64,000 nucleotides of DNA, from assembly GCF_002915595.1 (NCBI RefSeq), contig NZ_PQGG01000007.1:186001-250000 (forward strand). Direction: 5' to 3'. Position numbers and translations under genes: made by a program. The notes below the pieces were generated by a model, which searched no databases, was not told the DNA's origin, and saw only the letters and a program-made list of their open reading frames with translations. Shown here one piece after another: positions 31,638 through 45,365 of the stretch; position 1 is the first letter of the stretch; every line of letters starts with the position of its first letter. The DNA comes from Zhongshania marina. Lineage in GTDB: Bacteria > Pseudomonadota > Gammaproteobacteria > Pseudomonadales > Spongiibacteraceae.

Positions 31638-32000
31638 GGGGCCGATTTGGATTCGACGCCGGTTACAACGCTCTGAGGTGCATGCCGTGATGACAGCCAA
31701 TCACGTAAATCCAAAGCTGTAAACCTAATAGTTGCCAACGACGACAACTACGCTCTAGCCGCTTAAACCCCGGTTAGCGGTCGCTACCAGATGCTTGTAA
31801 ATGGGACGCGACCGTCATATAGAACAAGCTAGCGAGTAAGGTTTGTCTGAGACCGAGCCGCGAAACACCTAATCAGAATCGCCAATAACGTCCTGACCGT
31901 CGGGCTGTTTGCGGCTAAATCAATTGACGGAGACCAAGCATGTGAAGAGCCCTGAGTGGCGGACTGACGGACGCGGGTTCAATTCCCGCCGGCTCCACCA
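31638..32000 (+). ncRNA. ssrA: tmRNA (SsrA)
   Basis: tmRNA rescues stalled ribosomes and tags their products. The 5' GGGGCCGATTTGGATTCGAC pairs with the 3' end GGCTCCACCA as a tRNA-Ala-like acceptor. The T arm is GCGGGTTCAATTCCCGC. The resume codon GCC at 31734 opens the tag frame A-ANDDNYALAA ending in TAA at 31766, allowing for the first alanine from the charged tRNA part. That tag is the Pseudomonas form. The last 15 or so bases serve as the attachment site for the adjoining island, which restores the 3' end. Confidence 0.96.
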
Positions 32001-32001: not shown

Positions 32002-32034
32002 AACATCTTCCAAGGGAGACCACGGAAGGCCCAG

Positions 32035-32059
32035 AACCCCAGTAAATCTGGGGTTTTTT
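32035..32059 (+). terminator. Terminator downstream of ssrA (island-borne copy)
   Basis: CCCCAG, a five-base loop and CTGGGG are followed by TTTTTT. It terminates tmRNA transcription. A similar hairpin with the same GGGGTTTTTT ending, followed by TGCCTGC, lies at 45268-45297, beyond the right island junction. This suggests the island brought a replacement for the displaced native terminator. Confidence 0.8.
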
Positions 32060-32083
32060 GTGCCTGCACCGTCCACGGTGGGC

Positions 32084-32163
32084 TGGGGGCATCTATTGCC
32101 TTCCAGCATACTATGGGGGCACAATTGGGGGCATAAACGGATTTAACAAAACAGGTGCCCCCA
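32084..32163. repeat. Left-end TGGGGGCA arm-site cluster
   Basis: Direct copies of TGGGGGCA start at 32084, 32114 and 32126, and one inverted copy (TGCCCCCA) occupies 32156-32163, one base before the integrase ATG. The 12-base spacing of the second and third matches the spacing of the pair at the right end (45165, 45177). They look like arm-type sites for the integrase or its directionality factor. The inverted copy lies where it could repress integrase expression. Confidence 0.6.
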
Positions 32164-32164
32164 A

Positions 32165-33382
32165 ATGCCGCTAACAGATACCGCAGCAAAACAAGCCAAG
32201 CCTAAAGACAAAACCTACCGCCTTAGCGATGAAAAAGGCATGTACTTGGAAGTCACGCCAAAAGGACAAAAATACTGGCGCATGAAGTACCGCATAGGCA
32301 AACAAGAAAAACGGCTTTCTATCGGCGTGTACCCCACCACCTCACTCAAGAAAGCCCGCCAGATTCGCGAACAAGCCCGGCAACAGCTTCTCGACGGTAT
32401 CGACCCATCCGCACTGAAGCAAGCCAAAAAACTTGCCAGCGAATCAGCCTCAGAGAGCAGTTTCAAAGTTGTTGCTCTTGAATGGTTCTCAAAACAGAAG
32501 CCTACCTGGTCGGAGAACCACTGGACAAAAGTTGAACGAATGATGACCAAGGACCTCTTTCCCTACCTAGGTACTCGCCCACTTAAAGAAATCACACCAC
32601 CTGAACTACTAGCTGTACTCCGCAAGATTGAAAGCCGCGGCGCTTTAGAATCTGCAAAACGAACAAAGCAGATAGCCGGGCAAATATTTCGCTACGGCGT
32701 AGCAACAGGTCGCTGCGAGCGTGATGCATCCCAAGACCTTACTGGCGCCCTAGCCAACCCCATAAAACAACACCGCGCGGCGATCACTGACCCAAAAGCT
32801 GTAGGCCCACTTCTCAACGCCCTTGATGGTTATCAGGGCACCGCGGTAGTTAAGGCAGCACTTCGCCTCGCACCACTAACCTTTGTTCGCCCAGGAGAGC
32901 TACGAAAAGCCAAATGGGCCGACATTGATTTTGAAAAAGCAGAATGGCGCTATTACGTCACCAAAACTAAGTCTGACCATATCGTACCACTCTCGAATCA
33001 AGCAATTGCCATACTAAGAGATATTCAACCCCTTACCTGCAACAGCGAATATGTCTTTCCCGGCGCAAGAACACTGAGCCGCCCTATGAGTGACAACGCG
33101 GTGCTATCAGCAATGCGACGCATGGGGATAGGTAAAGACGAAATGTGCGGCCATGGCTTCCGTGCTATGGCACGCACGATAATGGACGAAGAGTTAAATA
33201 TTCGGCCGGACTGGCTAGAACAGCAGTTAGCCCACGCAGTTAAGGACGTGCACGGCAGAGCCTACAACCGGACAGCCCACTTACTAGAACGTAAAAAAAT
33301 GATGCAAATTTGGGCGGACTATCTAGACAATTTAAAAATACAAGCTGACGACACCAATGTAATCACTGCAAGATTCGGCTAG
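32165..33382 (+). CDS. Tyrosine-type site-specific integrase (DUF4102/P4-like)
   Basis: The integrase inserts and excises the island at ssrA. The N-terminal arm-binding domain (about 1-90) contains TYRLSDEKGMYLEVTPKGQK and WRMKYRIGKQEKRLSIGVYP, the P4-integrase type. A SAM-like core-binding domain follows (about 100-185). Catalytic residues are Arg242 (FVRPGEL), His330 and Arg333 (HGFR), His357 and Tyr367 (GRAYNR). All are present over 405 residues, so it should be active. It starts right after an inverted arm-like site. Confidence 0.95.
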   Translation: MPLTDTAAKQAKPKDKTYRLSDEKGMYLEVTPKGQKYWRMKYRIGKQEKRLSIGVYPTTSLKKARQIREQARQQLLDGIDPSALKQAKKLASESASESSFKVVALEWFSKQKPTWSENHWTKVERMMTKDLFPYLGTRPLKEITPPELLAVLRKIESRGALESAKRTKQIAGQIFRYGVATGRCERDASQDLTGALANPIKQHRAAITDPKAVGPLLNALDGYQGTAVVKAALRLAPLTFVRPGELRKAKWADIDFEKAEWRYYVTKTKSDHIVPLSNQAIAILRDIQPLTCNSEYVFPGARTLSRPMSDNAVLSAMRRMGIGKDEMCGHGFRAMARTIMDEELNIRPDWLEQQLAHAVKDVHGRAYNRTAHLLERKKMMQIWADYLDNLKIQADDTNVITARFG

Positions 33383-33550
33383 TGCAGCCCCCAAGCAAGG
33401 AGAGCTTTTTGAAGGATGCTTACTACGCTAGAACAATCGAAGTAGAGCAATGAACCGAATGATCTATAGTAAAATAAAAATTACTACCGATTACCCACAG
33501 GGATATAGGCCCGCATCGGGTCTCGCAATAGAAACAATAAAACGGTAATC

Positions 33551-34459
33551 ATGGACTACACTCTAAGAATTTCAAGCGCCCATCAAGTAATGCGTACATT
33601 CGATATGCTAAAAAATCTTGAGCAGCCAGACAATTTAGACCGAAAAGACATATTTCGTAACTTCCAGGATGATGTAGACGCAAATATTGCGCTAAGGCGA
33701 TGCTCTCACTCAACAGACTATATAGAGCGAATTCTCGCAGGATTAGTAGACATTGCGACCCTAGGTTATCACCAGCCGTTTAAAACAGTCACTGACGAAG
33801 AATTAGCACAATACCGACTTGACGCATCTAAACTTCATGAGCTAATAAAAAAAGGTAATCTTGAATCAATGCATAGATTATTAACTAGCTCGCGCAATGC
33901 AATACTTTCTAGAAATAAAGGAATTATTAATGAACTTTCAGAAAACCAATATTTTGCGCGAGCTCACTCCAACTTTCTTAGAAAGCAATACAAAATAAGG
34001 TTCTACCATACAGGAGAATTTACCGATGATGAACTTTTAGAAGAGGTGCTATTTAGGTTTTGCTATATAGCAATAGATGGACTGGCACTAGTAGATCAAC
34101 TCAAAAATCCGGCAAAAGAGTATCCGATCACACAAAAGGCGATGCGATTAGCTAGGCAATTGCAGCAGGAGCTTGAAGGGATACAGGGACCCAAGTTATT
34201 TAACGAGTACTTGACTCAGCTTATAGATCCCAATTCCAAACGAACCCGCTGGCGAATTCCACACACCGCAAATGAAAAAAGACAATTAATTTTACGAAAA
34301 TTAGGGCGAAGTCTTAGCAACTATTTTCTAATTTCTGGAACAAAGAAAGGAAGACCCTCACCAGATGTAGTGATGGATCTACTAATGCTCTGTGGCTACG
34401 AAATAGATTTGCGCCAAGCCAATCGCTTATTAGCCATACTAGACCGAAAAGAGATATGA
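33551..34459 (+). CDS. Unrecognised 302-residue island protein
   Basis: I do not recognise this protein. It is soluble, mostly charged and probably all-helical, and its gene is clearly richer in A+T than the hsd genes, which points to a separate origin. Segments such as DDVDANIALRRCSHSTDYIE and DDELLEEVLFRFCYIAIDGL show no known catalytic pattern. The C-terminal KKGRPSPDVVMDLLMLCGYE followed by IDLRQANRLLAILDRK could be a helix-turn-helix-like end. It stands alone between the integrase and the AlpA gene, a common slot for phage-defence cargo. Confidence 0.7.
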   Translation: MDYTLRISSAHQVMRTFDMLKNLEQPDNLDRKDIFRNFQDDVDANIALRRCSHSTDYIERILAGLVDIATLGYHQPFKTVTDEELAQYRLDASKLHELIKKGNLESMHRLLTSSRNAILSRNKGIINELSENQYFARAHSNFLRKQYKIRFYHTGEFTDDELLEEVLFRFCYIAIDGLALVDQLKNPAKEYPITQKAMRLARQLQQELEGIQGPKLFNEYLTQLIDPNSKRTRWRIPHTANEKRQLILRKLGRSLSNYFLISGTKKGRPSPDVVMDLLMLCGYEIDLRQANRLLAILDRKEI

Positions 34460-34587
34460 CATATTAATCGATTTTCGCATCCCCCCTGACATGTCATCCC
34501 GTTTAAATTCCTACATACTAAATCCATAACCTCACCTTCAAATCCGTGATGTCATAGGACCTCCTACAACACCGCGGAGCACCAAGC

Positions 34588-34794
34588 ATGACAGAGCAGA
34601 TCCGAGAAACACTTTTACGCCGCAAGCAAATAGAGGCCTGTACTGGCCTATCCCGCAGCACAATTTACGCCCTAATAAGCGAGGGTAAATTCCCCAAACC
34701 AATACCACTAACTAGTCGAACAGTTGCTTGGACACAAAGTAGCATCGACCAATGGATTGCCGGGCGCATTGCCGCCGCGAAAGCCAAAACCTAA
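34588..34794 (+). CDS. AlpA-like DNA-binding regulator/excisionase
   Basis: The 68-residue MerR-like winged helix has LLRRKQIEACTGLSRSTIYA followed by LISEGKFPKPIPLTSRTVAW, then TQSSIDQWIAGR, the AlpA pattern. Relatives activate integrase expression or act as recombination directionality factors of P4-type islands. Its presence with arm-like repeats at both ends suggests a role in excision. The next gene begins seven bases after its stop. Confidence 0.88.
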   Translation: MTEQIRETLLRRKQIEACTGLSRSTIYALISEGKFPKPIPLTSRTVAWTQSSIDQWIAGRIAAAKAKT

Positions 34795-34801
34795 AGTCGA
34801 C

Positions 34802-35641
34802 ATGACGTTGCTAGGCAGGCTCCTTGCGCGAGCCGATCATATTGAGATCTCAAATGGCAGGTTAATTATCTCACCGGCAAGCGGGAAGCCAGTACCTACT
34901 TTGTGGCTGAAGAAAAACCAGGTACAGCTTCTACGCGAGATTGCGATTTGCACCGACTCCAATCTATTTTCATACGATAGCTACTCAACAGGACGCTACT
35001 CAGTTAGCGAAAAATCCTCAGTTAAGTCCGCCGGAGTAACGTTGAGCTACTACGCGATACGATCTGATGAATTCGTGTATGTAACCTTCAATGCAGAGCT
35101 ACACCGCAAGCGCACAACAAAAGGGGGCAAGCAGGGCTCCCCGCTCCCACCCGGTCAGTTCAGAGTAACCAATCGACATAAGTTTCTCCGCTACTGGGAC
35201 AATACCGGAATCGAAAGGCCGCTACGACTCTCATCCTTTCACGACTGCATGGGCAAGCTTCGCGACGTCGTTATGACCGCTGAGTTCCAAAAAGCAAAAC
35301 GACTAAATAAAGACACCATTTGCCCAGCGGAGATAACCTCCACCCAACTCCGACAGGCATTAGGATTATCAGGCAATATCCAGACAAATCCCCTACAAAC
35401 ACCTGACAACTACCATACAACATTACCCGACAAGGATGTCGCGCAAAGCCACGTCACGAAAGGCTTTCATGACAATGAAAGTACGTGGCCCATTTACCGA
35501 GTACCAAGTAATCAAGGAGGCAAGTATATAAGTGATGTTAAGCCTGTAATGCAGAGGACTTCAGACCCGGCAAATCAAACCCATGAAGAATGGCTTGCCG
35601 AGTATGAAGCCGAGAGCAAGGCCTCTGATACCGCCCAATAA
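34802..35641 (+). CDS. Unrecognised 279-residue island protein
   Basis: I do not recognise this protein. The ATG at 34802 lies seven bases after the AlpA stop, so the two are likely translated together; the longer frame overlaps AlpA and is unlikely. The N-terminal half has alternating strand-like segments (DHIEISNGRLIISPASGKPV, SAGVTLSYYAIRSDEFVYVT). The middle is basic (ELHRKRTTKGGKQGSPLPPG), and the C-terminal third is polar and probably disordered. No catalytic motif is seen. It may be an accessory DNA-binding or replication factor of the island, but this is a guess. Confidence 0.65.
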   Translation: MTLLGRLLARADHIEISNGRLIISPASGKPVPTLWLKKNQVQLLREIAICTDSNLFSYDSYSTGRYSVSEKSSVKSAGVTLSYYAIRSDEFVYVTFNAELHRKRTTKGGKQGSPLPPGQFRVTNRHKFLRYWDNTGIERPLRLSSFHDCMGKLRDVVMTAEFQKAKRLNKDTICPAEITSTQLRQALGLSGNIQTNPLQTPDNYHTTLPDKDVAQSHVTKGFHDNESTWPIYRVPSNQGGKYISDVKPVMQRTSDPANQTHEEWLAEYEAESKASDTAQ

Positions 35642-35858
35642 ACATCCATTACACGACTAGTATATTGGAGCCCCAATACCGCATTTTTTACCTATAATTT
35701 CACTACTATTTTACAATACCAAACCAATACCAATTACAGGCACCAAAGACCTTTAGTAGCCATAGTGATCGCCTATACGAACATTTCACCGCACCCGCAT
35801 TTCAGTAAGCAATGTATTGATGTACCGTTACAGGCAAGCCAACTCATTCGAGGTAATC

Positions 35859-36158
35859 ATGAAATCCAAAATGGAATTCACAGAAGAGCTCCAACGACAA
35901 ATCACTCGCATATGCCGTGCATCAAAAGAAGGTTACAAAACCTCTGCTGTAGACCGACACCGACTGGAAGGGTTTATTCATGCCGGTGTATTTCTCGGCT
36001 TAACGACAAATGCAGCAGCCAAAAATTTACTTGAAAGCACTTACCTTGCAATCACCGGTGAAACGCTCAATCAAGCGAGTACAAAACCCAATGAAACAAT
36101 GTCGGTAGACCTACCAAACTATGAACGATTCGACACGCCCACCTACTTACGAAAATAA
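35859..36158 (+). CDS. Unrecognised 99-residue protein upstream of hsdR
   Basis: The small soluble protein starts MKSKMEFTEELQRQITRICR behind a GAGGT site, 217 bases after the previous gene. It contains an amphipathic helical part and the stretch VFLGLTTNAAAKNLLESTYL. I do not recognise a family. Its location directly before the restriction genes would suit a controller or anti-toxin-like partner, but nothing in the sequence proves that. Confidence 0.55.
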   Translation: MKSKMEFTEELQRQITRICRASKEGYKTSAVDRHRLEGFIHAGVFLGLTTNAAAKNLLESTYLAITGETLNQASTKPNETMSVDLPNYERFDTPTYLRK

Positions 36159-36269
36159 GCATTTGCCGTCTGAAGCGCCAGTGCTATACATTAGCTACAG
36201 CGGTGGACCTTATATTTAGTCCAAACAGGAATATGGACACACATAACAATCATAAGCATTGAGGGAACA

Positions 36270-39200
36270 ATGGCGACAAACACCAACCAAGGACAGGAAA
36301 GCAACTTCGCCTTTCTTAGCGAACACGACCCCATCCTAATTCAGCTCGCCACCACTGCTGAAAACGCCTTCTATGCCGACCCCAATACCACGCTAATTAA
36401 ACTACGTCAGTTTGGCGAAGCCCTCGCTCAAGATGTATCGCTGCGGGCCGGCATCGACTTTGACGATACCACCAGCCAAGCTGACCTACTCTATCGTTTG
36501 AATCGCGACATTAGCCTAGAACCCGATGTACGCAATCTCTTCCATGTACTACGCATCGAGGGCAATAAGGCCACTCACCAATTCCAAACCCAGCACAGAG
36601 AAGCGATGCAGGGCTTAAAGGTCGCTCGGCAGCTCGCTATTTGGTATCACAAGTCCTTTGGCAAGCAAGGCAGCACATTTAAAGCTGGCGCTTTTATAGC
36701 GCCGCAGGACCCAAGCCTGAAGCTCCGAGAGCTGCAAACACACATCGACCAGCTCAATGCTGAACTAAGTAGCAAAGCTGGTCAGCAAGAAGTAGAACAG
36801 CAACGTGACGCCCTGCTAGAGCAGGAGAAAGCCGAATACCAGCAGCTTGCCGAACTAATGGACGAAGAAGCCCAGCAGTTTAAACAGCAGGCCCAGGCAG
36901 CGGAACAGGCGCTTGCCGCACAGAAGGCAAAGTTTGAAGCGCAGATCACCGCACTAAAACAACAGCTCGTCAGCAACGCCGCACCAATAGAAAAACAGCG
37001 CCAGTCAGTTCTCAACAAAACCCAATCTGCCAGCAAAACACTGGTGCTCGATGAAGAGCTCACTCGGGTATTTATCGACCAGCTCTTGATCGATGCTGGC
37101 TGGGAGGCAGACACCCAAGAACTTACCTACAAATCTGGCGCCCGCCCCGAAAAAGGCAAGAACAAAGCCATTGCCGAATGGCCAACCCAGACTGGCCCCG
37201 CTGACTACATGCTATTCGCTGGACTGACGCCCATCGCCGTTGTAGAAGCCAAACGCGAAAACAAAAACGTTGCGGGCATGATTCCCCAAGCCGAGCGCTA
37301 CGCCAAGGGCTTTAAGCCCGACGCCACGGTAACGCCAGCATGGCAACTCGCGGGCCGCACAATTGCGTGGCCAGACGAGAGCGACGGCCATTATCAGATT
37401 CCCTTTGTGTACTCCTGCAATGGCCGCGAATACATCAAACAACTGAAAGAACAGTCTGGCACATGGTTTCGGGATGTACGAGAAACCAGCAATCTTAGCC
37501 GCGCACTGCAAAGCTTTCACAGCCCCTCAGGCCTTTTGGATTTACTCGCCAGAGATAAAGAAAAAGCCCAGCAATTATTACAGGGGGAAGGCTTCGCCTA
37601 TCTGCGCCTGCGCGACTATCAAGAAAAAGCCATTGTCGCCGTTGAATCCGCCCTAGAACGCGATCAGCGCGAATGCCTGCTCGCGATGGCAACCGGTACC
37701 GGTAAAACCCACACTATCATTGGTTTGATGTACCGTTTTCTCAAAGCAGAGCGCTTCAAACGTATTCTTTTCTTAGTCGATCGCAGTGCACTGGGCCAGC
37801 AGGCTATCGACGCATTCAATGAAGCGCCGCTGGAGCAGAACCAGCCCCTCAGCAAAATCTACAACATAAAAAAACTGGGTGACATGGCTGCCGAGGCGGA
37901 GACCCGCATTCAGGTGGCCACGGTGCAAGCAATGGTGAAGCGGATATTTATGTCCGACACCCCACCACCGGTTGACCAGTTCGACTGCATCATCATTGAC
38001 GAAGCGCATCGCGGCTATACCCTCGACCAAGAGATGACCGAAGGTGAACTCGCCCTGCGTGACACCAGCCAATACCTGTCGAGCTACCGCCGCGTATTAG
38101 ATTACTTCGATGCGATCAAGGTCGGGCTCACCGCCACCCCCGCCAAACACACCAGCGATATTTTCGGCAAACCGGTCTACACCTACTCCTACCGCGAAGC
38201 CGTCGCCGACGACTGGCTAATCGACCACGAGCCGCCAATCCGTTATGAAACCTTACTCAGCCAGAACGGCATTCAGTTTGAAAAAGGCGACACCGTTAGC
38301 GCAATCAACACCGCCACCGGCGAAGTAGAAGCTTCTGAATTAGAAGACGACTTAGGGTTTGAGGTCGACGCATTTAATCGTGGCGTGATTAGCGAGAACT
38401 TCAACAACGTCATCTGCCAACAGCTAGTACAAGAGCTCGACCCCTTTGGCGACGAAAAGACCCTGATCTTCTGCGCCACCGACTTGCATGCCGACATGGT
38501 CAAACGCCTGCTGGATGAGGCCTTTGTAGACATTTACAACGGCGACTACCCCCAAGCCGCCGTCGCCAAAATCACCGGCCAAAGCGACAAAGTCGACCAA
38601 CTCATTCGCCGCTACAAAAACGAACGCTACCCCAATATCGCGATAACCGTCGATTTGCTCACCACCGGCATCGACGTGCCCAAGATCGCCCACTTGGTGT
38701 TTATGCGCCGAGTGCGCTCACGCATTCTTTACGAGCAAATGGTCGGCCGCGCGACTCGCCGCTGCGACGACATTGGCAAGACCGTGTTTCGCATATACGA
38801 CCCCGTTGGTATCTATGCTGCGCTACAGGAGGTTTCTACCATGAAGCCGCTGGTGCGCAACCCCAACATCACCCTCGAACAACTCTGCGACGAACTGACC
38901 GACCCAGACAAACTAGAACAAAGTCTGAATGCCCCCGGCGAAGCCCACGACAGCAGCCACGCTGACACCGTTTTGAGCCAGCTCGGCCAAAAGGTCATGC
39001 AAGTGCTGCGCAAGGCCGAAAAGAAAGCAGAGAACAATCCGCAGGTGCGCCAAAAGCTAGATGAGCTGCAATACAGCTGGGGCGTTGAACCCGCCAAGCT
39101 ACACCAGCACCTGCACAGCCTCGGCCCCAAACAAGCTGCCAGCTTTCTTAATCAGCACAGCGGGTTTATAGACCAGCTCGCCCAAGTAAAAGCGATTATG

Positions 39201-39779
39201 GGCAGTGAGCGCATGCCAGTAATTTCGGAGCACGAAGACGAGCTACGAGTGCGGGAGCAAAACTACGGGGTGTACGACAAACCCCAAGACTACCTCGACA
39301 GCTTCAATCAGTTTATTCGCCAGCAGCTCAATGACTCGGCCGCCCTCAGCGCCGTGGTTAACCGGCCCCGCGACCTGACCCGCCAGCAGCTCAAAGACAT
39401 TCGCCTGCTCTTAGACAGCAACGGTTTTAGCGAAGCCACACTGCAATCGGCATGGCGACAGCAAACCAACCAAGACATTGCCGCCAGTATCATCGGCCAC
39501 ATTCGCCGCGCCGCCATCGGCGAAGCCATGATTCCCTTTGAGCAGCGGGTACAAAAAACAGTGGAGAAAATACTTAGCCAACACAGCTGGACACCACCCC
39601 AGCGCAATTGGCTGACTCGGCTTGGCAAACAACTCACCCACGAAATTATCATCAACCGCGACACCATAAACCAGATTCCCGCCTTTCCGGGTGGCGCTAA
39701 GCAACTCGACAAAGCGCTTGGCAACCAACTCGATACCGTACTCGACGCCATTAACGACGCGTTGTGGGCAGCGTCTTAA
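36270..39779 (+). CDS. hsdR: Type I restriction enzyme R subunit (HsdR)
   Basis: HsdR is the motor and nuclease subunit that cuts unmethylated foreign DNA. The 1169-residue protein starts with a DUF4145-like helical domain (about 1-130). A coiled coil follows (about 150-250). The PD-ExK nuclease has Asp312 in PADYMLF and Glu326/Lys328 in AVVEAKRE. The SF2 helicase has Walker A ATGTGKT near 475 and DEAH near 575, then the motif VI segment QMVGRATRRCD, and the C-terminal EcoEI-type region. It is intact. The other hsd genes follow after a 183-base regulatory gap and fic. Confidence 0.95.
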   Translation: MATNTNQGQESNFAFLSEHDPILIQLATTAENAFYADPNTTLIKLRQFGEALAQDVSLRAGIDFDDTTSQADLLYRLNRDISLEPDVRNLFHVLRIEGNKATHQFQTQHREAMQGLKVARQLAIWYHKSFGKQGSTFKAGAFIAPQDPSLKLRELQTHIDQLNAELSSKAGQQEVEQQRDALLEQEKAEYQQLAELMDEEAQQFKQQAQAAEQALAAQKAKFEAQITALKQQLVSNAAPIEKQRQSVLNKTQSASKTLVLDEELTRVFIDQLLIDAGWEADTQELTYKSGARPEKGKNKAIAEWPTQTGPADYMLFAGLTPIAVVEAKRENKNVAGMIPQAERYAKGFKPDATVTPAWQLAGRTIAWPDESDGHYQIPFVYSCNGREYIKQLKEQSGTWFRDVRETSNLSRALQSFHSPSGLLDLLARDKEKAQQLLQGEGFAYLRLRDYQEKAIVAVESALERDQRECLLAMATGTGKTHTIIGLMYRFLKAERFKRILFLVDRSALGQQAIDAFNEAPLEQNQPLSKIYNIKKLGDMAAEAETRIQVATVQAMVKRIFMSDTPPPVDQFDCIIIDEAHRGYTLDQEMTEGELALRDTSQYLSSYRRVLDYFDAIKVGLTATPAKHTSDIFGKPVYTYSYREAVADDWLIDHEPPIRYETLLSQNGIQFEKGDTVSAINTATGEVEASELEDDLGFEVDAFNRGVISENFNNVICQQLVQELDPFGDEKTLIFCATDLHADMVKRLLDEAFVDIYNGDYPQAAVAKITGQSDKVDQLIRRYKNERYPNIAITVDLLTTGIDVPKIAHLVFMRRVRSRILYEQMVGRATRRCDDIGKTVFRIYDPVGIYAALQEVSTMKPLVRNPNITLEQLCDELTDPDKLEQSLNAPGEAHDSSHADTVLSQLGQKVMQVLRKAEKKAENNPQVRQKLDELQYSWGVEPAKLHQHLHSLGPKQAASFLNQHSGFIDQLAQVKAIMGSERMPVISEHEDELRVREQNYGVYDKPQDYLDSFNQFIRQQLNDSAALSAVVNRPRDLTRQQLKDIRLLLDSNGFSEATLQSAWRQQTNQDIAASIIGHIRRAAIGEAMIPFEQRVQKTVEKILSQHSWTPPQRNWLTRLGKQLTHEIIINRDTINQIPAFPGGAKQLDKALGNQLDTVLDAINDALWAAS

Positions 39780-39798
39780 TTCACAGGAAAACAGCACA

Positions 39799-39948
39799 TG
39801 TATAGAAAACGCGATTTTTTATGCACGTCGACAGAACGTGTACATTTTTTGCAATTTTTTAAGCATGACATGAAAACATGCATAAATTTTTGCATTTTCT
39901 ATACACGTCACGATCGATATGTATAAACTATCCAAAATTCTATACATA
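39799..39948. promoter_or_regulatory. Cluster of TGTATA inverted repeats before fic
   Basis: The 183-base gap between hsdR and fic holds two inverted pairs. TGTATAGAAAA (39799-39809) faces TTTTCTATACA (39895-39905), a perfect 11-base match. TATGTATA (39918-39925) faces TATACATA (39941-39948). Further palindromic pieces (GCATG/CATGC, ATGCA/TGCAT) lie between 39862 and 39895. The TATAAAAT at 39947-39954 is about nine bases before the fic ATG, and no ribosome-binding site is seen. This is likely the control region of fic-hsdM-hsdS. Confidence 0.55.
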
Positions 39949-39962
39949 TAAAATGACTGCCA

Positions 39963-41036
39963 ATGACAACGCTAATTGCCCCGCTACCCTTTCCTGACAT
40001 GCCGCAGCTGGAAACCCGCAACGTGCTTAAAAAATGTGCGGAAGCCCATCGCTACCTCGCGGAACTTAAAGGTGTTGCGGCAAGCATCCACAACGAAGCC
40101 ATTCTTATTAATACCCTCACCCTTCAAGAGGCAAAGGACAGCTCCGCAATAGAAAACATTGTCACCACCCAAGACGAGCTCTTCAAAGCGACACTCTTTA
40201 ATGAGGGCACCACCAACCCCGCCGCTAAAGAAGTCCAAGACTACGCTATCGCGCTACGGGCAGGATTTAGCAGTATTCGCGGCAAAGGCATTATCCGACT
40301 GGCCGACGTATTAGACACTCAAGAAATTATCGAGAAGAACCGCGCCGGACTTAGACGCCTACCGGGCACTGTTCTCAAAAATGCCCTCACTGGCGAGGTC
40401 GTCTACACACCACCACAAGACCCTAACGACGTCGAAAGGCTAGTGAGCAATCTGCTCGACTACATTAACGATGACCAGCTCTGCGATGCCGACCCGCTAA
40501 TTAAAATGGCCATCATTCACCACCAGTTTGAGAGCATTCACCCCTTTTACGACGGCAATGGCCGAACTGGCCGCATCATCAATATTCTCTACCTCGTGGC
40601 CAAGGGGCTGTTAGACCTGCCGGTGTTGTACTTGAGCCGCTACATGATTCAAGACAAAAGTGCCTATTACCGTGAACTGCAAGCCGTGCGCGACGACAAC
40701 AATTGGGAGCCGTGGCTACTCTACATGCTAGAAGGCGTGTCACAAACCGCCCAAACCACCATTCGCCTGGTGAACGAAATCAAGCAACTAATGGCACAGT
40801 TCAAAAACACAATACGCACAGAACTGCCTAAAATTTACCGCCAAGAACTACTAAACAACTTATTCAATCACCCCTATACCAAAATCGAATTTATGATGGA
40901 CGACCTGCAAATCACCAGACTCACGGCAAGCAAATACCTAGAACAACTCGTGGAACTTGGCCTACTTCGCAAAGAAAAAATTGGCCGCAGCAATTACTAC
41001 ATTAACCATGCACTGGTTTCACTGTTTCTCAATTAA
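39963..41036 (+). CDS. Fic-family protein with autoinhibitory helix and C-terminal winged helix
   Basis: Fic enzymes usually transfer AMP from ATP to a protein hydroxyl. The active-site loop HPFYDGNGRTGR is at residues 193-204, fully canonical. An N-terminal inhibitory motif SSAIEN (60-65) fits the S/TxxxE(G/N) pattern of class II, self-inhibited Fic proteins. The C-terminal part, about 290-350 (KIEFMMDDLQITRLTASKYL then EQLVELGLLRKEKIGRSNYY), is a winged helix that could bind DNA. It sits between hsdR and hsdM, 10 bases before hsdM, so it is part of that operon. Confidence 0.92.
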   Translation: MTTLIAPLPFPDMPQLETRNVLKKCAEAHRYLAELKGVAASIHNEAILINTLTLQEAKDSSAIENIVTTQDELFKATLFNEGTTNPAAKEVQDYAIALRAGFSSIRGKGIIRLADVLDTQEIIEKNRAGLRRLPGTVLKNALTGEVVYTPPQDPNDVERLVSNLLDYINDDQLCDADPLIKMAIIHHQFESIHPFYDGNGRTGRIINILYLVAKGLLDLPVLYLSRYMIQDKSAYYRELQAVRDDNNWEPWLLYMLEGVSQTAQTTIRLVNEIKQLMAQFKNTIRTELPKIYRQELLNNLFNHPYTKIEFMMDDLQITRLTASKYLEQLVELGLLRKEKIGRSNYYINHALVSLFLN

Positions 41037-41046
41037 GGCCTAATAA

Positions 41047-42696
41047 ATGACCAACAACGACATTGTTCAAAAACTCTGGAATCTCTGCGACGTACTCCGC
41101 GACGACGGCATTAACTACAGCGACTACGTCACCGAGCTGGTGATGCTGCTGTTTATGAAAATGGTGCACGAGAACACCGAGTCAGACCTCCTCAAAACCC
41201 ACATTCTGCCCGAGGGTTGCCGCTGGACCGACCTCAGCAGCAAGTCGGGTTTAAATTTACTCGACGACTACAAACGCATACTGCTGGCGCTGTCTTCCGG
41301 CAAAGACGCAAACGGCAAGCAAGTCCACAACGACCTCTTAATTTCTGCCGTGTATGCCGACGCCCAAACTCGGCTGCGCGAACCTCGTCACCTAGAGCAG
41401 CTGGTAAAAGCCCTCGACCAAATCGACTGGTATAGCGCCCAGCAAGATGGCTTGGGGGATTTATACGAAGGCCTGCTCGAAAAAAACGCCAGCGAAACCA
41501 AATCTGGCGCAGGGCAATACTTCACCCCTCGCGCGCTCATCAATAGCATGGTGCGCTGCATTCAGCCCCAAGCCGGTGAAACCGTGCAAGACCCCGCGGC
41601 GGGCACCGCCGGTTTTTTGATTGCCGCCGACGCCTATATTAAACAGCACACCGACGACCTATTTGACCTGCCAGCAAAAGATCAAAAATTTCAACGCAAC
41701 AACGCCTTTCTCGGTGTAGAACTAGTGCCCAGCACCCGCCGCATGGCCTTAATGAACTGCCTGCTGCACGGTATGGAAGGCGACGACGAAGGCGTGGTTC
41801 ACCTTGGCAACGCGCTGGGCATGGTCGGCGCCAATCTCGCCAAGGCCGACATAATATTAGCCAACCCGCCCTTTGGCACATCCAAAGGCGGCGATGCCAG
41901 CATCACCCGCGACGACCTCACTTATAAAACCAGCAACAAGCAGCTGGCCTTCTTGCAACACATTTACCGCAATCTTAAACCCGGTGGCCGCGCCGCCGTG
42001 GTCTTGCCAGACAATGTTTTATTTGAAGCCGGCGTGGGCAACGAGGTGCGCCGCGACCTAATGAACAAGTGCAATCTGCACACCATACTGCGCCTACCCA
42101 CTGGCATTTTTTACGCCCAAGGCGTTAAAACCAATGTACTGTTTTTTACCAAAGGCCACCCTAAAGACAAACTCCAAGACGAAAACTGCACCGCCAATGT
42201 ATGGGTTTACGACCTGCGCACCAATATGCCCAGCTTTGGCAAACGCACGCCCTTTACCGAAGAACATCTAAAACCCTTTGAAGACTGCTACTTTGCTAAG
42301 AACAAGAAGGCGACCGCCAAGGATGGCGGAAGTGTCGAAAATGCAGGAGCAATTTTCGACCGAATGGAAGGAGATTATAGTTTCAACGCCAAAGAAGCCG
42401 ACACTACCGAAGAGGCTGGCAGTAACGACGACCTAGCCAAAAGCCGCTGGCGGGTATTCAGCCGCGACTGGATACGCGACAGCAAAGGCGACTCACTCGA
42501 CATAAGCTGGCTAAAAGACAAAGACAGCGTCGATGCCGCCAATCTGCCAGAACCAGAAGTGCTGGCCGCAGAGGCCATGTCAGAACTCACCGAAGCACTG
42601 CGCGAAATGGATGGCTTGATGCAGGCCTTGGGCGCTGGGGACGAGGCCGCGGTGCAAAGAATGCTAGTTCATGAAATTCTATGTGAGTCTAAGTAA
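41047..42696 (+). CDS. hsdM: Type I restriction-modification methyltransferase subunit (HsdM)
   Basis: HsdM methylates adenine N6 in the recognition site. The 549-residue protein has the N-terminal helical domain (IVQKLWNLCDVLRDDGINYS), the SAM motif DPAAGTAGF (from residue 182) and the catalytic NPPFG (from residue 273). A C-terminal helical tail is used for subunit contacts. Its stop overlaps the hsdS ATG by one base (TAATG), fixing the HsdM-HsdS ratio by coupling. Confidence 0.97.
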   Translation: MTNNDIVQKLWNLCDVLRDDGINYSDYVTELVMLLFMKMVHENTESDLLKTHILPEGCRWTDLSSKSGLNLLDDYKRILLALSSGKDANGKQVHNDLLISAVYADAQTRLREPRHLEQLVKALDQIDWYSAQQDGLGDLYEGLLEKNASETKSGAGQYFTPRALINSMVRCIQPQAGETVQDPAAGTAGFLIAADAYIKQHTDDLFDLPAKDQKFQRNNAFLGVELVPSTRRMALMNCLLHGMEGDDEGVVHLGNALGMVGANLAKADIILANPPFGTSKGGDASITRDDLTYKTSNKQLAFLQHIYRNLKPGGRAAVVLPDNVLFEAGVGNEVRRDLMNKCNLHTILRLPTGIFYAQGVKTNVLFFTKGHPKDKLQDENCTANVWVYDLRTNMPSFGKRTPFTEEHLKPFEDCYFAKNKKATAKDGGSVENAGAIFDRMEGDYSFNAKEADTTEEAGSNDDLAKSRWRVFSRDWIRDSKGDSLDISWLKDKDSVDAANLPEPEVLAAEAMSELTEALREMDGLMQALGAGDEAAVQRMLVHEILCESK

Positions 42697-44150
42697 TGGT
42701 CGAAGACACTAAAAATATATGGCCTAAAGCTAACTTGCTTGATGTTTGTGATGTAAAAACTGGGAAAGTTGACGCTAATCATGCGACTGAAGATGGTGAG
42801 TATACATTCTTCACTTGCGCCCTTGAACCTTTCAAATCGAACACATTTAGCTTTGATGGCGAATTAATTATTCTTCCGGGCAATGGCGCAAATGTTGGAC
42901 ATGTCAGGTTCTATAAAGGAAAAATAGAGGCATACCAAAGAACTTATATTCTGCACCACATCCATATTATCCCAAAGTATTTGTATTACAACTTACTTAA
43001 AAATTGGCGAAGAATTAACGTCGAGAAGCAATTTGGATCTGCTACAAACTACATAAAAATGGGGAATTTTGAAAGCTATAGCCTATCACTTCCCCCCCTA
43101 GCCGAACAAAAAGTCATCGCCGACAAACTCGACGAACTACTGGCGCAGGTCGACACACTAAAAGCCCGACTCGACGCCATCCCCGCCATTCTCAAACGCT
43201 TCCGCCAATCCGTACTCGCTGCGGCAGTAAGTGGGAAATTGACGGAGGATTGGCGGAGCAACAACTCTTTATCCAATACCAAGGAGCTAATAGAAAATTT
43301 AGGGAACGAGCGAAGGAAAGTCTTAGAACAAGAAATTACACAAGGGAATAAAGAGACTGCTAGGCTTTTAAAGAAAATTCAATCTCACGCACCAAAGTTT
43401 CCAAACGAAACCCTACCCACAAGTTGGGAATGGACAACTTTCATGCAAGCTATGGAAAGAGTGGTTGACTGTCACAACAAAACTGCTCCATACATCAACG
43501 ATGGAATTCCTTTAATAAGAACAACTGACATTCGAGATGGAAAAATTTCCCTCGACGGCGCGAGGTACATTTCTCAAGAAACTTATGACTACTGGTCTCG
43601 AAGGTGCCCCCCTAAACAAGGCGATATAATTTTCACTAGAGAAGCTCCAATGGGCGAAGCTGGTATCGTCCCAAAGGGAGTAACCCTTTGTATGGGCCAA
43701 AGAATGATGCTTCTACGCCCAATGCCCGCATTCATAAATGCGGAGTACGTATTACTTAATATCCAGTCATTGCAATTTCAGCAACGAATGTCCAGACAAG
43801 CTATTGGTACAGGTGTAAAGCATTTAAGAGTGGCAGACGTTGAAGCGCTGCCATTCCCTTTACCACCAAAAGCCGAACAAACCGAAATAGTCCGCCGCGT
43901 AGAACAACTCCTCACCTACGCCGACCAAGTCGAGCAGCAAGTCAAAAACGCCCAAGCCCGCGTTAACCAGCTCACCCAGTCCATACTCGCCAAAGCATTC
44001 AGAGGCGAGCTCACCGAGCAATGGCGCCAAGACAATCCCGAACTCATCAGCGGCGACAATAGCGCCGCCGCCCTACTGCAACACATCAAGGCCGAGCGGT
44101 CTGCGGCCAAACCGGCCAAGAAAACCAAAGGCAGGAAGAGCGATGCCTGA
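42696..44150 (+). CDS. hsdS: Type I restriction-modification specificity subunit (HsdS)
   Basis: HsdS sets the DNA recognition sequence. It has two target recognition domains (about residues 1-128 and 220-388). Each is followed by a conserved helical spacer: LPPLAEQKVIADKLDELLAQ with ILKRFRQSVLAAAVSGKLTE, and LPPKAEQTEIVRRVEQLLTY with LTQSILAKAFRGELTEQWRQ. The recognition domains are A+T-rich, while the helical parts match the G+C of hsdM, a mosaic pattern suggesting domain exchange. It overlaps the DUF3800 gene by eight bases. Confidence 0.95.
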   Translation: MVEDTKNIWPKANLLDVCDVKTGKVDANHATEDGEYTFFTCALEPFKSNTFSFDGELIILPGNGANVGHVRFYKGKIEAYQRTYILHHIHIIPKYLYYNLLKNWRRINVEKQFGSATNYIKMGNFESYSLSLPPLAEQKVIADKLDELLAQVDTLKARLDAIPAILKRFRQSVLAAAVSGKLTEDWRSNNSLSNTKELIENLGNERRKVLEQEITQGNKETARLLKKIQSHAPKFPNETLPTSWEWTTFMQAMERVVDCHNKTAPYINDGIPLIRTTDIRDGKISLDGARYISQETYDYWSRRCPPKQGDIIFTREAPMGEAGIVPKGVTLCMGQRMMLLRPMPAFINAEYVLLNIQSLQFQQRMSRQAIGTGVKHLRVADVEALPFPLPPKAEQTEIVRRVEQLLTYADQVEQQVKNAQARVNQLTQSILAKAFRGELTEQWRQDNPELISGDNSAAALLQHIKAERSAAKPAKKTKGRKSDA

Positions 44151-45036
44151 TAACGACGAGCAGCAATTACCCCTCTTTGATCTGGAACTTAGCCCAAGCG
44201 AAAGGCAGCCTGCTGCAGCGAGTATTGCCGACCACAGAGACGCGGCCCCATCAACGGAGTCGCGTTACAGCAAGTACATTGTGTTTGTTGACGAAAGCGG
44301 CGATCACGGAATGCAGACGATCGATCCTAATTACCCGCTATTCGTCTTGGCTCTGTGTGTTTTTCATAAACGGCACTACAGCGAGAAAGTCGTTTCAGCC
44401 TTAGAAAAATTCAAGTTCAATCACTTCGGCCATGATCAAGTGGTGCTTCACGAAAACGAGATCAGAAAGGAAAAAGGAGAGTTCAACATCTTCCGCAGTA
44501 GGGAAGAAAAATTTGCGTTTATGGATGAACTCACCCAAATCATTGAGCGCAGCAATTTCATTCTAATCAGCTGCGTCATCGATAAGCGCCAACTAAAGGG
44601 CAACATCGATACTAACGCCAACCCCTACCATATTGCGCTCGGCTTTTGCTTAGAGACGCTTTTTGAGTTTTTGCAGGAAAAAGGCCAAGAGGAAAAGCAA
44701 ACTCATGTGGTGGTTGAGTGTCGCGGTCGGAAAGAAGATAACGAATTAGAGCTGGAGTTTCGCCGTATTTGTGACGGCGCCAATAGACTTTCGCAGCAAC
44801 TACCCTTTGACGTTCGGTTCTCAGATAAAAAAGCCATGTCGTCCGGCTTGCAGTTAGCTGACCTCGTTGCCCGACCAATAGGACTGAGCGTTTTCAAACC
44901 CGCACAAGAAAACCGAGCATTTGACGTACTAAAACGGAAATTTTACTGCGCAGGAGGTCGAGACGCTGTCGGAAATGACTTTGAAGGCTATGGCTTGAAG
45001 ATTTTCCCAAGCCCAGAAAGCGAAAAGCCCCGATGA
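44143..45036 (+). CDS. DUF3800 domain protein
   Basis: The 297-residue protein has the DUF3800 start YIVFVDESGDHG with Asp50, Glu51 and Asp54, a possible metal site of an RNase H-like fold. The conserved QLADLVARPIGL lies near the C terminus. The acidic pattern suggests nuclease activity, but no function has been fixed for the family. It is translationally coupled to hsdS, so it belongs to the restriction operon rather than being random cargo. The first 40 residues are polar and probably disordered. Confidence 0.87.
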   Translation: MPDNDEQQLPLFDLELSPSERQPAAASIADHRDAAPSTESRYSKYIVFVDESGDHGMQTIDPNYPLFVLALCVFHKRHYSEKVVSALEKFKFNHFGHDQVVLHENEIRKEKGEFNIFRSREEKFAFMDELTQIIERSNFILISCVIDKRQLKGNIDTNANPYHIALGFCLETLFEFLQEKGQEEKQTHVVVECRGRKEDNELELEFRRICDGANRLSQQLPFDVRFSDKKAMSSGLQLADLVARPIGLSVFKPAQENRAFDVLKRKFYCAGGRDAVGNDFEGYGLKIFPSPESEKPR

Positions 45037-45247: not shown

Positions 45248-45261
45248 CGCCGACCCACCAA
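45248..45261. other. Probable right attachment core
   Basis: CGCCGACCCACCAA resembles the last bases of ssrA plus one base (CGCCGGCTCCACCAA, 31987-32001) with one missing base and two substitutions. It is followed seven bases later by a terminator that ends like the one behind ssrA. The pairing of relict ssrA end plus native terminator marks the right junction. Divergence of the copy makes the exact border uncertain. Confidence 0.45.
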
Positions 45262-45267
45262 GTATCA

Positions 45268-45297
45268 AACCTCAACTCGAAAGAGTTGGGGTTTTTT
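45268..45297 (+). terminator. Probable original ssrA terminator, displaced by the island
   Basis: CCTCAACTC-GAAA-GAGTTGGGG followed by TTTTTT forms a nine-base-pair stem with a stable GNRA loop. No gene reads into it closely on the plus strand. Its likeness to the hairpin at 32035-32059 suggests it was the native terminator of ssrA before integration. Confidence 0.7.
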
Positions 45298-45365
45298 ATT
45301 GCCTGCTTAATGGAGCCCCGTGAATCTGCCTCAATTTCTATATATAAGCCAGTACGATAATCGCA

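Follow-up and report, generated by a model that had tools for sequence, protein, structure and literature searches.

A 64,000-nucleotide stretch of Zhongshania marina DNA (the window; contig NZ_PQGG01000007.1, positions 186,001 to 250,000) carries a type I restriction-modification (R-M) island at a tmRNA gene, in which fic, encoding a class II FIC protein, stands between hsdR and hsdM. The hsdR-fic gap is an array of 27-bp palindromes with half-sites about 20.5 bases apart, and the half-site follows the clade of the Fic protein, TGTATA with clade A and TGTCGA with clade B, also at Fic genes outside this position. The hsdR/hsdM junction is an exchangeable cargo slot, typically filled by a cassette made up of an operator array and a SoFic-type fic. 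Our best explanation of the locus as a whole, which the sequence comparisons make fairly probable, is that a Fic dimer is both a toxin and the autorepressor of fic-hsdM-hsdS, that the cassette is exchangeable and provides a second-line response, and that the DUF3800 protein encoded behind hsdS is a nuclease.

On the Fic tree (rows shorter than 250 amino acids omitted), the slot Fics fall into four clades, A (which includes the window protein), B, C, and D. The type A motif, first seen in the clade-A slot loci, was afterwards counted throughout, allowing up to one mismatch, within 150 bases of fic; the counts by clade omit L024, L025, L026, L033, L039, and L042. The type A operator is present at 14 of 15 clade-A slot Fics and at 11 of 20 other clade-A Fics, and the type B operator (TGTCGA-N15-TCGACA) at 15 of 21 clade-B slot Fics and 7 of 9 others of clade B. 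The background is about 0.003 (A) and 0.004 (B) per 400 bases, and the control positions gave 0/73 behind hsdS, 3/73 before hsdR, and 3/37 before hsdM in loci without Fic. Successive type A operators in clade A are 41 bases apart in 9 of 13 intervals; successive type B operators in clade B are 70-71 bases apart in 6 of 7. Clades C and D show other palindromes (GTTAAA..TTTAAC and CATACG..CGTATG, respectively), and that of clade D passed in both of two cases. Because the half-site matches the Fic clade, Fic is the best candidate reader of the palindromes. In the original prediction, a control region sets restriction apart from modification plus Fic. There is good support for such a region in front of fic, and the evidence suggests more, namely, that Fic reads it. 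We rejected the possibility that the palindromes belong to hsd alone, as they also occur at Fics with no hsd match among the listed neighbours (L004, L007, L008, L010, L011, L014, L016, and L017), where other R-M types are possible.

The reverse search used the exact pattern ATGTATA-N15-TATACAT in an even draw of 274 class-level genomes, the survey used throughout. It found 13 sites in 10 genomes, and the reversed control found one. Eight of the 13 are just upstream of a Fic gene (two each in G144 and G077, and those in G000, G050, G034, and G227; the G034 Fic has in-frame stops and that of G227 has 30% identity), for which the probability by chance is negligible in a rough calculation with assumed genome sizes. 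One site (G032) is flanked by fic and a type ISP R-M gene, and four are elsewhere (two in G198, 41 bases apart, and those in G179 and G140). In G316, fetched after the motif had been fixed, both clade-B-like Fics have the type B and lack the type A operator; one is in an hsdR-fic-hsdM-hsdS locus and the other has no hsd match in its stretch. Of 261 plasmid records with a match, 12 Fics were examined, and four have the type A operator (L158, L159, L161, and L166) and two a variant of the same geometry (L163 and L165). The L159 plasmid operon (6001-12788), fic-hsdM-hsdS-ATPase, has two exact operators and no hsdR annotated upstream in the stretch, and is perhaps a Fic-modification unit without restriction. 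Two Azotobacter plasmid type I loci (L163:6001-9455 and L166:5971-9493) have two annotated Fic genes flanking hsdS.

Slot contents were obtained from the best 80 of 294 confirmed hsdM relatives in named genomes, which represent relatives of the window hsdM rather than all type I systems. In the 76 loci with both hsdR and hsdM on the contig (L064, L106, L112, and L119 excluded), the slot holds Fic in 41, an RloAB-like pair alone in 8, nothing in 23, and other cargo in 4 (Abi_2 in L085, a PIN protein in L098, and L099 and L120). The slot was scored as holding nothing when the hsdR-hsdM gap was 200 bases or less; these gaps are 13-189 bases. One of the 41, L128, has Fic plus an RloAB-like pair, and beyond the 76, Fic also precedes hsdM in L112 and L119, whose contigs do not include hsdR. 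The fic-hsdM gaps range from -41 to 148 bases and are -4 in 7 of 42; both gap lists use the longest reading frame, that for fic-hsdM without L102 and that for hsdR-fic without L128. The nine RloAB-like pairs are mutually related (70-95% for the first gene and 49-88% for the second, compared with L076); the L076 pair has an AAA_21 match and an RloB match with E 1.7e-5, below that family's curated cut-off. The original prediction took the tight packing of the operon to mean that Fic and DUF3800 are parts of the system, and with Fic recurring at this position in 41 of 76 loci and DUF3800 directly behind hsdS in 5 of 80, the arrangement is not due to chance. A different pair, an AAA ATPase of about 570 residues and a protein of about 370 residues, stands behind hsdS in L103 (13056-15871) and is found in 14 of the 80 named loci (also L089, L095, L101, L105, L111, L112, L114, L119, L121, L123, L126, L133, and L141), standing behind DUF3800 rather than hsdS in L121, L133, and L141.

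Outside this sample, 103 of the 274 survey genomes have a Fic relative (E 1e-20 or better). R-M genes (type I, ISP, or type III-like) lie beside 10 of the 37 fetched places, with not every neighbour scanned (G077, G145, G169, G220, G266, G119, G154, G097, G032, and G068; at least 36% identity, short fragments omitted). The neighbour script left L009, L023, L033, and L038 unassigned, and rechecking L009, L023, and L038 placed hsdM beside L023 only. The 48 genomes of the G145 family have only three Fic places, two of them slot positions and one (L146) without an hsd match within 14 kb.

Comparison of sister loci shows the exchange of the cassette. The window Fic is 99% identical to that of L065 and 42% identical to that of L063, while the window and L063 proteins are 95% (HsdR) and 92% (HsdM) identical. 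The DNA match between the window and L063 covers 36260-39861 at 91.5%, stops inside the palindrome array, and restarts at 41047, the ATG of hsdM, with only a 104-base match (79%) between, inside fic. The two recognition regions of HsdS are likewise different, with no DNA match to L063 over 42648-43087 and 43256-43855; such differences are usual for type I systems. The HsdM tree (82 rows, quick method; L064 and L106, whose slot is off the contig, omitted) needs 37 changes of slot content; the minimum is 6, and the mean over shuffles is 48.6. Sister sets that differ in cargo are supported at 97-100 in the Shimodaira-Hasegawa-like approximate likelihood ratio test: the window and L065 against L063 (A/B), L113/L102 (A/C), L130 against L127, L131, L136, and L139 (B/C), L137/L077 (A/RloAB-like), and L129/L132 (D/none). 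Thus, lineages keep their cargo for a time, and its replacement at the same position is common. The original suggestion that Fic controls HsdR finds no support here: Fic clades and RloAB-like genes take each other's place next to hsdM and hsdR genes that are closely related, which speaks against a Fic adapted to a single HsdR. We also disfavour a Fic that modifies or is matched to HsdR.

The same exchanges, frequent on the HsdM tree, are what would be expected if Fic and DUF3800 were mere neighbours and the slot a place where selfish or defensive genes insert independently, with no regulatory or functional link to hsd. The variety of the cargo and the 23 slots that hold nothing agree with this, as does the frequent location of SoFic-type genes elsewhere. 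We nevertheless consider it rather unlikely. The slot Fics belong to few clades (5 label changes on the Fic tree against a shuffled mean of 25.5, though sampling by hsdM favours such grouping), nearly every slot locus has fic and hsdM overlapping or only a short distance apart, and DUF3800 is found behind the target-recognition gene in unrelated R-M types.

Some findings weigh against Fic as the reader of the operators. Fisher tests of operator against clade (1.4e-5 for type A and 9e-10 for type B) ignore relatedness, and the A motif came partly from the same loci. The clade-C palindrome passed in 3 of 7 cases, and clade-distinguishing residues show no clear enrichment in the C-terminal domain (4 of 86 positions, against 7 of 271). 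The operator is missing at 9 of the 20 other clade-A Fics, and 6 of the 12 plasmid Fics have neither the A operator nor the variant. No hsd gene was found at the operator-less clade-A Fics L013, L020, and L022; six more (L006, L012, L015, L018, L021, and L023) are in R-M loci and may be read from another promoter. At L006 (9893-9921), a perfect Fic-type operator lies between the SoFic-type gene and a type ISP R-M gene, fronting the R-M gene and not fic. The promoter scan of 39600-40000 in the window gave no sigma-70-like site beyond chance. A search of the own 4.1 Mb assembly, with spacer 17 first and then 14-16, found exact half-sites with spacers of 14 or 17 at three other places. A stricter 29-mer occurs in 10 viral contigs, none with a Fic match in the stretch, which counts against the operator being exclusive to Fic. 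Within this viral set (L148-L157), L149 has a second, imperfect operator copy beside the exact 29-base one, and in L148 the neighbour of the operator resembles, by eye, a single-strand binding protein gene.

The viral sites, the 41-base pair in G198, and the operators kept in three hsd loci without Fic would be accounted for if the palindromes served an unrelated regulator, encoded elsewhere and controlling many defence genes. This is improbable, given that the half-site changes with the Fic clade both inside and outside the slot, and that in the genome of the window the exact TGTATA-N15-TATACA is found only at fic (operator 4).

With Fic as the reader, operators that do not match the resident cargo may be ghosts, leftovers of replaced cassettes that record past swaps. 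A type B operator is present in 2 of 15 clade-A slot loci, and B-like half-sites that fail the B count lie far upstream in the clade-C loci L127, L131, L136, and L139, whose relative L130 has a clade-B Fic. Neither L115 nor L120, both near the B-bearing L094 on the HsdM tree, has a Fic, and each retains a B operator; in L104, which has an RloAB-like pair, operators of both types, A and B, persist. In L170 (5333-5402), two operators 41 bases apart stand behind a GNAT-like gene in a stretch that is prophage-like by eye and has no Fic match; this pair is possibly a lost cassette. These sites can also be turned against Fic as sole reader. Operators stand before hsdM in three of the 37 loci without Fic, and an A operator lies within 400 bases in 10 of 21 clade-B slot loci and in none of 9 other clade-B loci; the ghost operators could be functional and have a live second regulator.

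The window Fic matches PADLOC SoFic with E 4e-118 and has relatives in the PDB at E 3e-83 to 3e-78. Its score against the NCBIfam SoFic equivalog NF046030, 382.8 bits, does not reach the cut-off of 550, so we call it SoFic-type rather than a SoFic equivalog. The catalytic motif HxFx(D/E)GNGRxxR and the N-terminal inhibitory motif (S/T)xxxE(G/N) are both intact. In the clade rows, the Fic motif is present in 74/74 and the inhibitory motif in 71/74, and both are kept in all 45 slot Fics of these sets. The C-terminal domain of the S. oneidensis FIC protein has been called a winged helix-turn-helix, and the helix-turn-helix (HTH) domains fused to FIC were proposed in the same 2009 analysis to regulate fic (PMC2686095). 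CccR, a class II FIC protein with an HTH, was measured to be a toxin and an autorepressor acting at the palindrome AGATAATCAT-N26-ATGATAATCT (PMC9755527). The window fic likewise has a palindromic candidate operator before its own gene, and given the CccR precedent, the window Fic is likely an autorepressor of fic-hsdM-hsdS as well as a toxin.

We suggest the following mechanism. Using its C-terminal domain, a Fic dimer would bind the 27-bp palindromes, which mostly follow one another at 41 bp, and repress the transcript fic-hsdM-hsdS, perhaps with DUF3800. As hsdM is only 10 bases behind fic, this repression should reach hsdM and hsdS, and hsdR would be expressed separately, from upstream. 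Acquisition of a cassette would then place modification and specificity under the control of the FIC enzyme itself. A change in the state of Fic during infection could link toxin activity with derepression of the operon and so give a second-line abortive response behind restriction. The abortive killing is suggested by analogy with what PMC12249575 describes for other SoFic proteins. The DUF3800 protein, translationally coupled to HsdS, would probably supply an RNase H-fold nuclease activity. We would extend this only tentatively to SoFic-type FICs in general, as dual toxins and transcription factors that control R-M modification genes. Their operator-fic cassettes, of at least two and perhaps four specificities, would be swapped at the hsdR/hsdM junction and re-wire hsdM-hsdS with every exchange, and one phage-sensing event would switch both AMPylation and methyltransferase supply.

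The position of Fic inside the operon would also suit guarding by the R-M complex, in which HsdM and HsdS would keep Fic silent until phage anti-restriction released it; PrrC, guarded by EcoprrI, is the model for this idea. The SoFic of Escherichia coli H397 is toxic on expression and is countered by the downstream-encoded AS1, of 47 residues (PMC12249575), and PMC12629846 mentions type I loci that contain an embedded PrrC. The 10-base gap before hsdM leaves no room for an AS1-like gene directly behind fic; AS1 was not searched for. Guarding seems very unlikely to us, as several Fic clades and RloAB-like genes interchange beside closely related hsdM with no specific interface evident, and the slot Fics have kept their own inhibitory motif (45/45). 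The landing site, the unrelated regulator, and guarding are not mutually exclusive.

The five loci with DUF3800 directly behind hsdS are L063, L065, L121, L133, and L141, the end of hsdS being off the contig in a few of the 80; in L124 it is 2.9 kb behind. In the survey, 16 of 274 genomes have a DUF3800 match, and seven matches outside the window are well covered (G202, G110, G019, G127, G046, G236, and G260; one in two reading frames). Five of the seven belong to R-M loci. Those of G202 and G127 immediately follow hsdS, those of G236 and G260 come after an MmeI-like gene, and that of G019 has an OLD-like gene on one side and hsdR on the other. In four of these five, the gene directly in front has a target-recognition part, which bears out the place that the original prediction gave to DUF3800. 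No R-M gene was found near that of G046, and G110 is a short contig showing an AAA ATPase. By its structural model (pLDDT 79.6, pTM 0.79), the protein has an RNase H-like fold: Foldseek gave only three matches at E 0.001 or better, all RNase HII chains, the best with E 3.2e-5 and a TM-score of 0.39 by query and 0.50 by target. Eight acidic residues are invariant in 12 sequences (D50, E51, E104, E171, E192, E198, D199, and D240), and no PADLOC model matched. An RNase H-like fold has been reported for DUF3800 in Cas12-linked systems (PMC10910872). The nuclease role that was foreseen for this protein is thus plausible by fold.

The operon itself (Table 1) is tightly packed, with gaps of 183 bases (hsdR-fic) and 10 bases (fic-hsdM) and overlaps of 1 base (hsdM/hsdS) and 8 bases (hsdS/DUF3800), and its type I gene set is complete, with two recognition domains in HsdS. 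The coordinates, gaps, and overlaps originally assigned to the five genes were all correct; the range covered the operon and omitted the tmRNA gene and integrase in front of it, as well as the palindrome array. Window 31001-32001 matches positions 3965-4965 of L063, also a Zhongshania, at 86.7%, and in L063 the hsd operon is behind the same tmRNA gene, with hsdR starting about 260 bases behind it. The integrase segment of the window (32002-36259) has no match anywhere in the 21.6 kb of L063, and no tmRNA gene was found in L065. Behind the integrase, 33551-35641 holds two open reading frames (302 and 305 residues) with no Pfam, PHROG, NCBIfam, or PADLOC match and none in L063.

Table 1. Features of the island and its candidate operators (window coordinates).
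Feature	Position	Strand	Evidence
tmRNA gene (ssrA), integration site of the island	31638..32000	+	ARAGORN
Tyrosine integrase of the island	32165..33382	+	Pfam Arm-DNA-bind_3 / Phage_integrase; PHROG 1
hsdR, 1169 aa	36270..39779	+	Pfam ResIII, HSDR_N, EcoEI_R_C; NF008521, 1606 bits
Candidate operator 1, TGTATA-N15-TATGCA, 1 mismatch	39799..39825
Candidate operator 2, degenerate, inferred between operators 1 and 3	half-site at 39839
Candidate operator 3, TGCATA-N15-TATACA, 1 mismatch	39879..39905
Candidate operator 4, TGTATA-N15-TATACA, exact	39920..39946
fic, class II SoFic-type FIC protein with C-terminal SoFic-like_C domain, 357 aa	39963..41036	+	Pfam Fic_N, Fic, SoFic-like_C; PADLOC SoFic
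hsdM	41047..42696	+	Pfam N6_Mtase, HsdM_N
hsdS, two target-recognition regions	42696..44150	+	Pfam Methylase_S, 2 stretches
DUF3800 protein, RNase H-like fold (by model), 297 aa	44143..45036	+	Pfam DUF3800 (E 2.5e-20)
Probable right attachment copy	45248..45303		86% match to L063 4951-5007 (end of the L063 tmRNA gene and just behind)

SoFic ranks among the anti-phage proteins, and neither its trigger nor its regulation is known (PMC12249575); the clade-specific operator provides a handle on its regulation. It predicts that the C-terminal domain is a DNA reader, with the DNA-bound and toxic states possibly linked. If our proposal is true, type I modification genes have a control mechanism carried by the toxin itself, and ghost operators document, in readable form, how the cargo of a defence operon has been exchanged. 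Since its subfamily is found behind the recognition genes of different R-M types, DUF3800 becomes a testable R-M accessory.

Toxin and accessory genes are known in hsd operons from PrrC/EcoprrI and the Rlo genes linked to type I R-M; the window differs in its effector, and its slot alternates between Fic and an RloAB-like pair. Defence genes embedded in type I operons have been described (PMC12255303, PMC12629846), a Fic gene is listed between hsdS and hsdM in Histophilus somni (PMC3339403), and a 2024 preprint by Payne et al. concerns, judging by its title alone, the concept of defence genes embedded in immune systems. The array of palindromes between hsdR and fic, with its clade-matched half-site, is new here. 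Among the matches listed, with most subscription papers outside the scope, no paper dealt with SoFic operators or Fic control of hsd genes, and the main text of PMC12249575 does not contain the terms 'winged', 'helix-turn-helix', 'DNA binding', or 'transcription'. A DNA complex among the SoFic structures 9tc4, 9tch, 9tcl, and 9tb0 in the PDB would lower the novelty.

The window Fic has the same domain architecture and family as the single-gene anti-phage system SoFic (SO_4266, PDB 3eqx; EcSofic, PMC12249575), whereas its gene occupies the hsdR/hsdM slot and comes with an operator array. CccR of Yersinia pseudotuberculosis, a class II FIC protein with an HTH that is a toxin and palindrome autorepressor, resembles what we propose for the window. 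However, CccR is a type VI secretion system effector with a longer operator (26-bp spacer), no R-M genes are described with it in that account, and it is only distantly related to SO_4266, at 29% over 45% (PMC9755527). The type I island with embedded DarTG2 that is controlled by RptR (PMC12255303) is similar to the window in having an embedded toxin and an autorepressor at multiple palindromes, the latter proposed in our case. RptR is a separate small repressor with the site TAGCTA, and the cargo there lies between hsdS and hsdR, whereas in the window, we propose that the toxin doubles as the repressor, and the cargo occupies the hsdR/hsdM junction.

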